A stretch of 5,589 nt of DNA, taken from positions 1-5,589 of the forward strand of contig JAUUYK010000082.1 of assembly GCA_030588285.1 (NCBI GenBank), read 5' to 3'. The notes under the pieces were generated by a model. The model searched no databases and was not told the origin of the DNA. It saw only the letters and a program-made list of their open reading frames with translations. This stretch comes from Kiritimatiellales bacterium. GTDB lineage: Bacteria; Verrucomicrobiota; Kiritimatiellia; Kiritimatiellales; Pontiellaceae. The translations under genes were made by a program, and so were the position numbers. This document shows, piece after piece, positions 1,645 to 5,143 of this stretch. Position 1 is the first letter of the stretch; every line of letters starts with the position of its first letter.

Positions 1645-2240
1645 TTATTTCCCCGCATCTAAAATCCGCCCCACCAACCGATATACCGTGGTTCCTATGA
1701 GGCGAGGCCAATCTTCGCAGGGCGGGCGATCCCGCTGTTCTGCGCGGTTGACGGCGGCTTGAATCATTTCGGCCGTCAGCTTCCGGGGATTAAATCCTTT
1801 GTCGTAGTCCGGTAGGTGCTGGGCAAGCTTCTGCGAACATTGCCGCCCTGATGCAATGCCGGTTCCATCTTCAAAGTGGAGTAGCAACCAATATTCAACT
1901 TGGGATTGCTCAAGGCAAACCCGAACTCCTCCTTGTTTTCCGACCAAGCAAAAAGCTCGGCCAGTTGCTCGTCGGACCACTCGTCCTTATCGACCACCAA
2001 CCATGCTTCATCCCCCTTGCGAAGCCGTTCTTTTTTCAACCGTTTTTCCATACGAGCCAATACATGCGGCGGAGCACTGGCATGGCCGCCCTTGATGCAA
2101 GAGATGTGGATCGTCGCATACTGGCTATCCAATAGACGGAAATACGTCGGTTCGGTTTTGGCTCCCTCGGAGGCTATTAAAAATAGCTTTCTATAACGCC
2201 GGGTGTTGGCCGTTCGGCTGAATTTACGACGGGGAGCCAT
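1645..2240 (-). pseudogene. rloB: RloB-like Toprim-type protein, interrupted by a one-base frameshift
   Basis: RloB-family proteins are partners of RloA/AAA15 ATPases in AbiL-like defence pairs and are thought to be nucleic-acid cleaving effectors with a Toprim-like core. The first frame (from 2240) gives SEGAKTEPTYF (about residues 24-34), matching the family's EGxKTEpxYF, and then AWLVVDKDEW with a D-x-D (Asp84, Asp86). It continues through GFALSNPK near residue 114 and then leaves the family pattern. The family pattern resumes in a second frame: EYWLLLHFEDGTG, HLPDYDKGF and a C-terminal helix, ending with TAA at 1645-1647. The switch lies at about 1896-1902, where one base is missing (AAGTTGAA instead of a full NPK-x-EYW coding string). 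Repaired, the product is ~198 aa, the usual RloB length. The ATG at 2240 overlaps the ATPase stop. No classic slippery site is present, so this is a mutation or a sequencing error. Confidence 0.8.
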
Positions 2241-2255
2241 CAGGCCGATCCTCCT
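2238..2255 (-). promoter_or_regulatory. Coupled stop/start and ribosome binding site between the ATPase and rloB
   Basis: The ATPase stop and the rloB start share a base in TGATG (2238-2242). A strong AGGAGG (2250-2255) inside the end of the ATPase gene stands 9 bases before the ATG at 2240. This selects that ATG over the upstream in-frame TTG at 2261 and indicates translational coupling. Confidence 0.85.
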
Positions 2256-3571
2256 GCCCAATCAGCCATTCTGCCGTGAGCATGAATTCGAGGAGTGCCC
2301 CCCAACCGGCCTTGCAAATAGCTCTTCCGGATATCCTTGTCGTATCGGACATCCCCATATTCGCTAAAGGAAAGAAGCTGGGAACATCCATCGAGATCGC
2401 GCTCGGCCACCCACATCTCGTCCCGGCGGAAAAGGTGCTGATCCATCAACGACACATCATGCGTGGTAAACAAAAGCTGGGAACGGCTTTTCGGCGTAGT
2501 GCTTTCCAGAAAACCTTCAAGCAGGCGGCGGGTCAGTTGGCTATGTAGACTTCGATCCAACTCGTCGATAACATAGACCTTTTTCGCGCGGGACAGGCTC
2601 ATTTCTAGAAAGGCGGGCAACAGATCAATTACGCGCTGGGAACCATCGGATTCCTGCTTCATTTCAAACGGGATTTGGGTTCCGTCTTTACAGGCGTGCA
2701 TCGTGACCAATTTTTTGGCCACTAGCTCCCCGTTCCGGCGGGTAATCACGAGACGTTCGTTTGCCAAATCATTGAACATCTTAACCGCCATGCCTTCCTT
2801 TACATCCTCTTGGAGGCGGGTTTTGATAAACTCCGGAAGCGACAGGGCCGAAAAGGAAACCTCTTCGACCCCCAGATGGGCAATGCCGGTATCCAGCAAC
2901 GGCAACATACCATTCATGGTTGCATAGAGCGGGTGGTTCTCGTCCAGAAACTCCTCAAAGGGTTCAAAACGAGAATCCGGCGCAATCAATTCCAGCGAAT
3001 CCTTGAACCAGTCATAGACCGGTTTGAACTTTTCCACCTGCTGGGATACCGAGTTGGTTAGAAATAGCTGGTTTTCCCGGGTTCCCTGAAAGGCAAACTG
3101 TAAAAACTGGTCCCCCTTGAGCGATTCGTCGAAATGGGGTTTACCCTCTTTTCGGTGATACAGAGTTTTTTCGCTCGAGCTGGTCACCAGCACCAGCTTT
3201 TCCTCAACAACCGCCTGAGCCGTAACGGAAAAACTAAATTCATACATGCGCTCATCAATCAAAAGTTCAAAAGAAAAGCAGGCGGGATGCTGCATCATGG
3301 AGGGATCGAGGCGGAAACGCTCCACCGGAATAAGGCTCTGGGGCTGGGTTCCCTTTACAATGAGCATCTTGGCAAAATTCAACGCTTGGAAAAAATTGGT
3401 TTTTCCCGAGGCGTTACCGCCATATATTGCGGCGACTGGAAGCACCCGCATCTGGTATTTTCCAACCTTTGGAACCCGCTCCCCATGCTGGCGTTCCTTG
3501 GTTGCCACCATTGAAAAAACGGCCTCGTCTCTAAACGACATCCAGTTTTTAAAACTAAATCTAACCAGCAT
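2240..3571 (-). CDS. rloA: AAA15 / RloA-like ABC-type ATPase (443 aa)
   Basis: This is an SMC/ABC-like ATPase of the AAA15 (RloA, AbiLi-like) family. It would act as the sensor or motor of the two-protein system with the RloB-like protein encoded next. Features in order: an N-terminal strand motif [17 protein letters not shown]; Walker A GGNASGKT (51-58); a long variable middle region (about 100-290); the ABC signature-like ESDGSQR (307-313); Walker B VYVIDELD (332-339) with Glu337 as the catalytic base; and a switch histidine in FTTHD (His371). The C-terminal block [21 protein letters not shown] (about 405-425) is typical of RloA-type ATPases. The ATG at 3571 has AAGGAGG 6 bases upstream. 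The frame is complete and all ATPase motifs look intact, unlike its partner. Any promoter must lie in the short region holding the 16-bp palindrome. Confidence 0.9.
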
Positions 3572-3584: not shown

Positions 3585-3629
3585 CTTCCTTAATATCGAG
3601 CACGTACCTTACCGGCCTCATCTTATATC

Positions 3630-3666
3630 TCAATGCATAACGAGATATTTTCTCGTTATGCATTGA
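3630..3666. repeat. Perfect 16-bp palindrome upstream of the ATPase gene
   Basis: TCAATGCATAACGAGA (3630-3645) and TCTCGTTATGCATTGA (3651-3666) are exact reverse complements around the 5-base spacer TATTT. After one mismatch, three more pairs extend the arms. It sits 59 bases upstream of the ATPase start and 10 bases from the broken end of the RAYT duplicate at 3677. A possible -10 (TATAAG, 3621-3626, leftward) lies directly next to it, so an operator is possible. Other readings are a terminator-like hairpin or a transposon end. No long T run follows on either strand. Confidence 0.8.
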
Positions 3667-3676
3667 AATAAAAAGC

Positions 3677-3849
3677 CCAGCACTGCTCCACCAGTCGGCC
3701 CAACTCATTGGGCATCATCTCGCATCCCTCCACCTGCCCGAATAGAGGCTGATGGTAATCCGCGCCCAACGTAACGAAGTACCATCCCGGCCGAGAATAA
3801 TCGCGACCGTTCATCCGCAACTTCTGCGACATGCTTTTTTTGAATTCGC
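3677..3849 (-). pseudogene. Truncated second copy of the RAYT transposase 5' end
   Basis: These 173 bases match 4762-4934 without gaps and with five differences (about 97% identity). They encode the N-terminal ~58 residues of the neighbouring RAYT, for example KSMSQKLRM, YSRPGWYFVTLGADYHQ and EMMPNELGRLVEQCW, and then stop abruptly before the HUH motif. Three of the five differences change the protein (Asp to Asn, Gln to Arg, His to Pro relative to the intact copy), which is consistent with drift in a dead fragment. The fragment has its own upstream sequence, so it is not simply a tandem copy of the whole locus. Confidence 0.9.
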
Positions 3850-3999
3850 TCTGCTTCGTATGGATCAAAAAAGCGATGTCTTTGGCTTAGCGCCCTTCAT
3901 CAACTCGTTGAGCGGAATTCCTTTTTTCGAAACAGGAGACCCTCTACCGTCATCGATCCCATTAATCGGCCGCAAGTCCCAGTCGTAAGCCGCCAACGG
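3850..3999 (-). pseudogene. Remnant of an unrecognised protein, with a T-run frameshift
   Basis: Read leftward from about 3999, one frame gives a natural-looking sequence including YDWDLRPINGIDDGRG, KKGIPLNELMKGAKPKTSLF, then a TGA at about 3864-3866. Removing one T from the run of six just before that TGA continues the frame as DPYEAER up to the edge of the RAYT duplicate at 3849. This looks like a gene fragment cut off by the duplication and damaged in a homopolymer. I do not recognise the family. The leftmost codons overlap the REP-like hairpin at 3982-4007, so the true upstream limit is uncertain. It could also be a chance open frame. Confidence 0.35.
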
Positions 4000-4011: not shown

Positions 4012-4941
4012 TCATCTTTTTTCGACGTGCTCCTCTTCAGATGAACAAAACTGACTCACCCAGCGGTTAGCCTGCTCGCAACGGGCACGACTAACCTCCG
4101 TCGCATCATCAGGAAAAGCCGAAAGCCAAAGCGCACGATTTTCTAAAAAAGCATCCGTCCAGCCCACCGGGATCGTTTGCGGCATTTTTATAGGAAGCAC
4201 CCATATAATCCGCGCAGAACCAACTTGCAATCGACTCAAACAGGCCCGCTCTCCTGCGGAAAGAAAAGTACTACAAACGGTACCTTCAAACGTAGAAAGC
4301 TCATCCTGCAACTGCTCAATATCCGCTTCCGAAGCTCGTCGAGAAATACGCAGTGCTCTGCACGGCTCCTTGCTCTTTAGCAACGCTTTATTGCCCCGAA
4401 ACCGACTTTGCTTAATCCGACCCTCCGGCACATCACGCAGTGCCCAACGTCGCGGATTTGCCCACACATAGTTTTCCCGAATCGCCAGCTCTTCTGCATC
4501 AAAGCAAATCACATCCCAATAATTCGGCGCCCATACCCGGACTTTCTCGCCAGCACCTTGCTCTTTCCCGCCATGGCGAGAATCTTCATAAGCCCCCTGC
4601 GACCGCCGCCACTCGCGCGTCACCGAACCCTTGAACATATTGATGACCTCACCCAGCCCACTTCCACCCGGCTGGACAATCCGGATCAGCCCGTGAAAGT
4701 GGTTTGGCATCACCTGCCACGCCCCCAATTCGATAAGGCTATAATGCTTCGGAATCTCGCTCCAGCACTGCTCCACCAGTCGGCCCAGCTCATTGGGCAT
4801 CATCTCGCATCCCTCCACCTGCCCGAATAGATGCTGATGGTAATCCGCGCCCAACGTAACGAAGTACCATCCCGGCTGAGAATAATCGCGACCGTCCATC
4901 CGCAACTTCTGCGACATACTTTTTTTGAATTCGCGCCCCAT
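4012..4941 (-). CDS. REP-associated (Y1/HUH) transposase with a DprA/SLOG-like C-terminal extension (309 aa)
   Basis: RAYTs are single-strand-specific HUH tyrosine transposases that recognise REP hairpins. The catalytic domain fills residues about 9-170: the opening strand GWYFVTLGADYHQ (24-36), the metal-binding HFH in VMPNHFHGLI (81-83), the helix GEVINMFKGSVTREW (97-111), VWAPNYWDVIC (136-146) and ENYVWANPRRW (156-166) with Tyr158 as the candidate nucleophile. Typical RAYTs end shortly after this. Here residues about 183-300 add a second region: GNKALL, ISRRASEADI, STFLSAGERACL, IIWVLPIKMP, ENRALWLSAFPDD and SRARCEQANRWVS. Its order of motifs recalls DprA/SLOG-type Rossmann domains, without their final strand. 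The ATG at 4941 has only weak upstream purines. An internal ATG at 4917, inside the part shared with the truncated copy, is an alternative start. Confidence 0.85.
   Translation of the reverse strand: MGREFKKSMSQKLRMDGRDYSQPGWYFVTLGADYHQHLFGQVEGCEMMPNELGRLVEQCWSEIPKHYSLIELGAWQVMPNHFHGLIRIVQPGGSGLGEVINMFKGSVTREWRRSQGAYEDSRHGGKEQGAGEKVRVWAPNYWDVICFDAEELAIRENYVWANPRRWALRDVPEGRIKQSRFRGNKALLKSKEPCRALRISRRASEADIEQLQDELSTFEGTVCSTFLSAGERACLSRLQVGSARIIWVLPIKMPQTIPVGWTDAFLENRALWLSAFPDDATEVSRARCEQANRWVSQFCSSEEEHVEKR
4762..4934 (-). repeat. Source copy of the 173-bp direct repeat
   Basis: It matches 3677-3849 at a constant offset of 1085 bases with five substitutions and no gaps. Both copies begin at GCGAATTC just upstream of the internal RAYT ATG, suggesting this is near a real element boundary. 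Confidence 0.9.
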
Positions 4942-5143
4942 CGCCTTTTCCCCTCTTCTCTCTCGCTACAGCGAGATGGCCCGCACAGCCGGACTCCCTA
5001 CGCCTCTGCTTACAAACCTCCGACAAGGTCTTTAGAAAGATTTTCCGTTCCTTATCGTCCTGAAGAATCTGTTCGCGACGACTCCCCCGACACATTACAT
5101 GGTAGAGGGCTCTCGCATATTCAACTCTTGGCTTTCGTCCCGT
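4942..5143 (-). pseudogene. N-terminal relic of a second, different Y1 (IS200-like) transposase
   Basis: Reading leftward from 5143, the frame gives GRKPRVEYARALYHVMCRG, then SRREQILQDDKERKIFL and KTLSEVCKQ. This is the classic opening of REP-family Y1 transposases (RVEYAxxLYHVMxRGxRRExIfxDDxDRxxFL). It then departs from the family at about residue 47, before the HUH motif could appear. The usual ATG appears as ACG (5141-5143), an in-frame TAG lies four codons upstream (5153-5155), and no ribosome site is visible. The following stretch GCAGHLAVAREKRGKGDG resembles a glycine-histidine segment from the C-terminal end of some members, so an internal deletion is possible. It is clearly a different lineage from the RAYT just downstream, which starts at 4941. 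Confidence 0.75.

Follow-up and report, generated by a model that had tools for sequence, protein, structure and literature searches.

Why should a transposase whose catalytic domain is already complete continue for another 130 or so residues, and what might such an extension do? This question is posed by a gene on contig JAUUYK010000082.1 of the Kiritimatiellales bacterium assembly GCA_030588285.1. The stretch analyzed, all 5,589 nt of it, is called the window here. The gene encodes a protein in which a RAYT-like part of the HUH/Y1 type is joined to a tail with the fold of DprA, and it is laid out as follows.

4012..4941, minus strand: gene for a RAYT-like HUH/Y1 transposase with a C-terminal DprA-like domain (open reading frame, 309 amino acids, ATG start)
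4417..4890, minus strand: HUH/Y1 catalytic domain, residues 18-175 (H81, H83, Y158)
4015..4416, minus strand: DprA-like Rossmann tail, residues 176-309

Our best explanation, held as a whole with modest confidence, is that a RAYT-type HUH endonuclease/ligase has had its C terminus replaced or extended by a Rossmann domain of the DprA family. The fusion itself, the fold and spread of the tail, the conserved motif remnants within it and the conserved palindromes that accompany the gene are computed results.

RAYTs are widespread domesticated transposases. The earlier note on this DNA had placed the end of the HUH domain near residue 170, and this is borne out by the predicted model, in which the H81-F-H83 motif and the helix carrying Y158-xxx-NP are both complete by about that point. 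An HUH motif together with a single catalytic tyrosine in a Y-xxx-NP context defines class 2 RAYTs, and the protein has both. Assignment to the IS200/IS605 TnpA proteins was considered and rejected, since Y-xxx-Q is expected there and Y158-xxx-NP is present instead. The best family for the protein is NCBIfam NF047646 (REP_Tyr_transpos, E 4.9e-14). Its score of 52.4 bits is below the curated cut-off of 80, and for this reason the protein is named RAYT-like. The match to Pfam Y1_Tnp (E 0.0091) is likewise below the Pfam cut-off. The model also places an insertion in the HUH part, between helix 96-114 and strand 141-147.

Beyond the catalytic domain, all six motifs that the earlier note had quoted as an ordered set are found in the same order in the translated reading frame, and residues 181-300 are modeled with a mean predicted local distance difference test (pLDDT) score of 96-98 in every ten-residue block. 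That note had read the tail as a DprA/SLOG-like Rossmann domain and had proposed a comparison with DprA and LOG folds. When predicted models were compared with solved structures, the modeled tail showed a DprA-type Rossmann fold. As a single sequence, however, it has no match in Pfam, where the DprA family PF02481 also fails to match, nor in NCBIfam, PDB (by sequence), PHROGs or PADLOC. Because these single-protein searches were blank, profiles of distant relatives were needed. With a profile of 19 diverse tails, the sole PDB sequence matched at E 0.1 or better was DprA from Streptococcus pneumoniae (SpDprA; E 8e-4, residues 99-221). In hhalign the same profile scored 88.9% against ten DprAs of related genomes, versus 0.3% for four LOG proteins from related genomes and 0.1% for a YspA-like SLOG protein. 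Matches to PF02481 below its cut-off occur in two relatives (E 0.036 and 0.11), and 2 of the 19 tails reach that family at E up to 1.

The profile comparison favors DprA over LOG and YspA-like SLOG proteins, which were rejected as the nearest family, and on the sequence evidence the preference for DprA over other SLOG families is supported. LOG Rossmann domains carry the motif PGGxGTxxE. This motif is not present in residues 176-309, and no LOG protein is in the structure-match list of the window model, an absence that by itself excludes nothing. The superfamily relation still stands. The tail could be a SLOG-type sensor in which nucleotide binding switches the nuclease, like SLOG domains in other conflict systems. 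We regard such a sensor as quite improbable.

Two separate DprA-like proteins, L066 (174 amino acids) and L072 (307 amino acids), are closer to the RAYT tails than the DprAs of related genomes are. The 19-tail profile scored 99.1% in hhalign against these stand-alone proteins, which match PF02481 under its cut-off (E 4.5e-6 and 2.9e-5). Further stand-alone relatives were sought among 17 proteins and not accepted, several being truncated RAYTs and the remainder possibly fragments; L066 and L072 alone were counted.

Structure comparison also points to another DprA-like protein. ShosA is the top VIA-align match of both predicted models, and the PADLOC model for PsyrA matches 6 of the 19 tails (best E 3.4e-7). 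The tail might therefore act like the ShosA/PsyrA antitoxins, sensing foreign or damaged DNA or restraining a partner, with the protein serving in defense or its control. An AbiL/Rlo-type gene pair in the same window would suit this role. In the seven other window stretches that were scanned, however, Pfam recognized no phosphoribosyltransferase (PRTase) or helicase, and neither the window tail nor P0001 has a PADLOC match. An antitoxin-like function is, in our estimation, very unlikely.

DprA has two sequence signatures for single-stranded DNA. Motif 1 of DprA ends in an arginine, R115 in S. pneumoniae (PMC4066776) and R52 in Helicobacter pylori (PMC4489622), where the motif runs from Gly50 to Arg52. 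For SpDprA, R115 alone is described as insufficient, a lysine patch being needed besides (PMC4066776). Motif 2 is given as F/L/Y-X-X-R-N/D (PMC9769556). Counterparts of both motifs can be placed in the window protein.

4339..4344, minus strand: Ser200-Arg201, counterpart of the end of DprA motif 1 (SpDprA R115, HpDprA R52; HMMER alignment of the tail profile to 3uqz)
4066..4068, minus strand: Asn292, counterpart of the Asn in DprA motif 2 (F/L/Y-X-X-R-N/D; from alignment rows)

In the HMMER alignment, S200-R201 falls on S114-R115 of SpDprA, and this Ser-Arg pair is kept in 81 of the 81 rows of the close set (A2). It is preceded by Ile in the window protein and by Val in the consensus, where motif 1 of HpDprA has Gly. 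Among the diverse tails the arginine is present in 17 of 19, the other two having Gln. The asparagine of motif 2 is held even more firmly (81/81 close rows, all 19 tails of the diverse set A5, and 68/69 complete-tail rows). Directly before Asn292, 79 of the 81 close rows have Ala and two have Cys, and the motif-2 arginine is retained in 22 of the 69 complete-tail rows. As judged from sequence, the single-stranded DNA site of DprA is partly kept in the tail, and single-stranded DNA binding by the tail is likely. RecA loading, by comparison, is unlikely in the window clade because the protein stops at the helix following motif 2, before the region to which M238 belongs in SpDprA.

The earlier note had named occurrence in this one protein as grounds for abandoning its reading, and the tail is in fact found well beyond it. 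A protein search returned 205 proteins including the query (the best 120 of which were listed), and a search with the tail region alone returned 36, again including the query. The family profile matches in 134 of 387 genomes from the phylum of Pontiella sulfatireligans. Among the matches listed, at least 26 cover both parts (from model position 20 or less through 285 or more) in at least 22 of the 387 genomes, one of them with an internal stop codon. The 18 titled loci belong mostly to Pontiella and to other Kiritimatiellales or Kiritimatiellae, with one record each titled Akkermansia muciniphila and Victivallis vadensis. Searches of plasmids, phages and viral contigs gave no full-length relative (the best plasmid match covers 50% of the query and the phage match 36%), and none of 27 pattern-matching stretches on viral contigs was confirmed as a relative.

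Two types of tail can be told apart. Seven of 17 aligned distant loci (L033, L036, L039, L042, L044, L047 and L048) keep an extra strand-helix unit that carries a GHLNPxGML-like motif; the tails of the window clade stop at the helix of DprA motif 2. The median ratio of nonsynonymous to synonymous substitution rates (dN/dS) is 0.236 for the tail, taken over the 27 of 105 pairs whose dS was below 2 (the highest of them at 1.01), versus 0.125 for residues 18-113 of the HUH part (45 of 105 pairs). The tail is under purifying selection, with weaker constraint than the catalytic part.

What DNA might such a protein act on? The gene contains a palindrome within its reading frame, and a second one with a matching stem lies upstream.

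4566..4581, minus strand: in-frame 16-nt palindrome (coding for SRHGGK; seven Watson-Crick pairs and one G-T pair) in the linker between alphaC and beta4
4961..4976, minus strand: palindrome with matching stem, 19 nt 5' of the start codon (exact TCTCGCNNNNGCGAGA)

Within the window alone the palindrome pattern is at chance (three found at up to 3 mismatches versus 2.35 expected), and the case therefore rests on relatives. These were gathered as 19 close rows, comprising the window plus 18 further rows drawn from 17 loci, with two copies from L001 and with the incomplete or disrupted genes L011, L015 and L016 included. Omitted were L028 (more distant; at best 7 of 8 pairs, in another frame), L017 and L029 (frameshifted gene), L018 (tail only), and L019 and L021-L027 (repeats of counted loci). 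All 19 rows have the 16-nt palindrome in reading frame zero in the alphaC/beta4 linker, which is modeled with low confidence. With wobble counted, all eight pairs form in 16 rows and seven in the other three. The stems vary in step, as TCTCGC/GCGAGA, TCCCGC/GCGGGA, TCTCAC/GTGAGA and GCTCGC/GCGAGC. Overall, 98.0% of palindrome cells pair, versus 88.8% in shuffles and 39.5-57.9% when the partner is slid, and changes on both sides account for 18 cells in 4 pairs, versus 4.9 and 1.8 in shuffles.

Codon choice was controlled for as well. The rows hold 147 of 152 possible Watson-Crick pairs, versus an average of 84 and a maximum of 103 when codons for the same residues were drawn in 2000 trials. A census of stems of eight or more pairs found 18 in 18 close genes, versus 2.2 after synonymous shuffling (maximum 6 in 100 runs), and 29 in 17 distant genes, versus 2.6 (maximum 7 in 100 runs). 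In 34 neighboring reading frames used as a control, 8 palindromes were found versus 5.5 expected. The census was made on genes other than that of the window, with reading frames taken from stop to stop and thus including some upstream noncoding sequence. In-frame insertion of repetitive extragenic palindromes (REPs) has been described for subclass 2.4 RAYTs (PMC6006769) and also for other genes (PMC3733652). The RAYT-DprA genes share this subclass 2.4 trait of REP-like palindromes in frame within the gene.

Palindromes of these types were also counted genome-wide, as exact patterns that miss diverged copies and in genomes other than the window's own. The sequence TCTCGCNNNNGCGAGA is matched 8 times across 13 genomes, with 7 of the matches inside the RAYT gene, versus 4 for the reversed control. 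This count is not far above the control, and what is telling is where the matches lie. In Pontiella, 9 of 10 copies of the TCCCGC type lie in or 5' of its two RAYT genes (control 1). Across 11 genomes the TCCCGC pattern has 45 matches versus 9 in the control, with 34 of the 45 in genomes G001 and G005. In distant members the palindrome sits inside the gene in 3/3 cases in G348, 2/2 in G209, 1/1 in G082 and 2/3 in G011, with controls of 0. Thus, the palindromes mostly stay with the gene. Dispersed canonical REPs are not supported as the cognate element, since the copies are mostly in or beside the gene and the GT[AG]G foot is lacking at most in-gene palindromes.

Stems inside and outside the gene match in the window and in L001 and differ in L016 and L002. 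L016 has a TCTCGC-type stem inside the gene and two TCCCGC-type stems upstream; L002 has a TCCCGC stem inside and one TCTCGC stem downstream. Pontiella also has a palindrome array upstream of the gene with a spacing of about 121 bp. In G001 (C2:1794653-1795280), six TCCCGCTGTAGCGGGA palindromes lie directly 5' of a RAYT-DprA gene, five at 121-bp intervals and one more after a further 128 bp.

Several other palindrome populations were encountered. The distant RAYT-DprA genes of L030, L031, L032, L034, L035 and L040 repeatedly contain or adjoin palindromes of the GGCGGCCATTATTGGCCGCC, GCGGCAATAATGCCGC or GGCGGGCATTCTTGCCCGCC kind, whose loop occurs in both orientations. Elsewhere in G001 (C2:1775951-1776625), two GGCGACANNNNTGTCGCC palindromes flank another RAYT match (1776301-1776603), and three more occur at other sites. 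Genome G005, which holds L010, has 24 scattered TCCCGC(ATTC, GACT and others)GCGGGA palindromes, versus none for the reversed control. Because its RAYT-DprA gene carries a TCTCGC stem, these copies are tentatively ascribed to another element, of which they are possibly the REP population.

Cleavage, single-strand binding by the tail and the match between enzyme and palindrome are what we infer from these observations, as follows. The N-terminal part, to judge by its family, would recognize a DNA hairpin and would cut and rejoin one strand through Tyr158. The DprA-like part most likely would contact the single strand leaving the hairpin through its conserved Ser-Arg loop, and might thereby keep hold of the substrate or shield it, and determine specificity or processivity. 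In doing so it could take over the job of the short C-terminal tail of Escherichia coli TnpA_REP, whose residues are reported to contact the GTAG guide, and deletion of parts of which lowers or raises activity (PMC8266576). A DprA-like domain in its place would naturally seize the strand leaving the hairpin. The substrate most likely would be the family's own palindrome, found in frame in the gene and sometimes upstream. An HUH cutter whose DprA-like tail grips the single strand, acting on its own palindrome, is a model toward which we lean by a little. As the pairing recurs in related bacteria, cutting and holding of the DNA target may be combined in a single protein.

A number of results weigh against this reading. 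Two narrower profiles gave much lower hhalign scores against DprA than the 88.9% of the diverse 19-tail profile, namely 0.3% for the full-length family profile A2 and 16.5% for profile A4 of seven complete tails. The motif-1 arginine is retained in just 53 of 69 complete-tail rows. Neither the Phe nor the Arg of motif 2 survives in the window clade, so that the full motif is absent there, and the tail is not strongly basic (20 Lys and Arg versus 18 Asp and Glu). Regarding the palindrome, the number of further pair types does not stand out from shuffles (7 versus 6.2, attained in 124 of 500). A GT[AG]G foot is missing at 17 of the 19 in-gene palindromes (present at 2/19 on the 5' side and 0/19 on the 3' side). 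The single-strand folding energy of the window palindrome, -4.2 kcal/mol, does not beat that of shuffled sequences (z -0.58), and the conserved symmetry may therefore equally reflect recognition of a double-stranded dyad.

Some of these same results suit an alternative in which the DprA fold is a scaffold that dimerizes or stabilizes the enzyme and no longer binds DNA. This would be in keeping with the near-neutral charge, with the higher dN/dS of the tail than of the HUH part, and with what the window clade has lost (the motif-2 Phe and Arg and the C-terminal part). However, Ser-Arg and Asn are invariant in the 81 close rows, as expected of a binding site that has been kept, and we consider the scaffold unlikely, if clearly less so than a sensor or an antitoxin.

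Taking the strand-gripping model further, a RAYT lineage may have absorbed a DprA-type module for single-stranded DNA, giving rise to a one-protein machine to "cut, hold and rejoin" whose main targets are palindromes within its own coding sequence and in the vicinity of its gene. Instead of mobilizing dispersed REPs, such an element would be self-targeting, self-regulating or homing. This extension is speculative, and we put it forward as a doubtful but specific proposal.

A partial copy of the gene and a hairpin lie nearby in the window.

3677..3849, minus strand: second, truncated copy of the RAYT-DprA gene, from its 5' end, 173 nt, 97% identical (blastn)
3623..3673, minus strand: long near-perfect hairpin adjoining the end of the truncated copy, a candidate only for a link to the RAYT system

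The second copy also aligns as 182 nt at 95% (3677-3858). The hairpin has 23-nt arms that are 91% complementary and folds at -18.8 kcal/mol as DNA (z -8.75); it might mark the end of a deletion or insertion. Directly upstream of the RAYT-DprA gene is an open frame (4793-5140, minus strand) without a Pfam or NCBIfam match. Its start may resemble that of another RAYT subclass, which we treat as a lead; if this is true, the RAYT-DprA gene adjoins a broken second RAYT. The AbiL/Rlo-type pair (1645-3571, minus strand) consists of an AAA_21 ATPase (PADLOC AbiLi, E 2e-78) followed by RloB (PF13707). The latter is divided between overlapping frames at 1776-2261 and 1645-1980, and rloB thus looks frameshifted. 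A glutathione peroxidase gene (PF00255, E 1.3e-39) occupies 981-1550 on the minus strand.

RAYTs with a DprA-like tail offer a direct handle on whether RAYTs hold or protect single-stranded DNA at forks or in recombination, and point changes can be made at residues whose role has been measured in DprA. They also show DprA-like domains outside transformation proteins and toxin-antitoxin pairs. With in-frame palindromes that compensatory change preserves, located for the most part within the gene or next to it, the pairing of enzyme and palindrome becomes testable without a genome-wide REP population.

How does this family compare with known systems? Quentin et al. (2018) divided the transposase family into three classes and 12 subclasses (PMC6006769), with C-terminal domains that, as far as that source was available, are helix-turn-helix-like or without assignment. 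Its main text does not contain "DprA", "Rossmann" or "Verrucomicrobia", and the comparison is one of descriptions, not of sequences. In the open-licence literature searched, no paper pairs RAYT or TnpA_REP with DprA or with Pontiella, and none of the titles listed for broader terms names a RAYT-DprA fusion, in agreement with the earlier note, whose author knew of no such RAYT subgroup.

The closest published group by its in-frame palindromes is subclass 2.4 of class 2, for which Table 1 of that study gives no tail domain and in which the insertion lies between beta3 and alphaC (PMC6006769). The RAYT-DprA proteins, in contrast, have a DprA-like tail of about 130 residues and an insertion between alphaC and beta4. 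They also lack a general GT[AG]G foot, and their palindrome copies are mostly in or beside the gene. Subclasses 2.1, 2.3, 2.6 and 3 are likewise described as lacking that foot (PMC6006769). DprA (Smf) itself shares with the tail the Rossmann fold, the GN..LL..SR opening, the alignment over SpDprA 99-221, the motif-1 Arg and the motif-2 Asn. Unlike DprA, the tail is fused to an HUH transposase and, in the window protein, has no PF02481 match; in the window clade, motif 2 is without its Phe and Arg, and the C-terminal part is missing. ShosA and PsyrA are described as separate proteins paired with a PRTase or with a helicase that has a PRTase domain, whereas the RAYT-DprA proteins carry the domain as part of a transposase. 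The RAYTs of subclass 2.1, with their DnaA-like helix-turn-helix C-terminal domain, are similar in joining a RAYT core to a conserved C-terminal domain. Their extra domain is reported to resemble a helix-turn-helix, whereas that of the RAYT-DprA proteins is a Rossmann fold.
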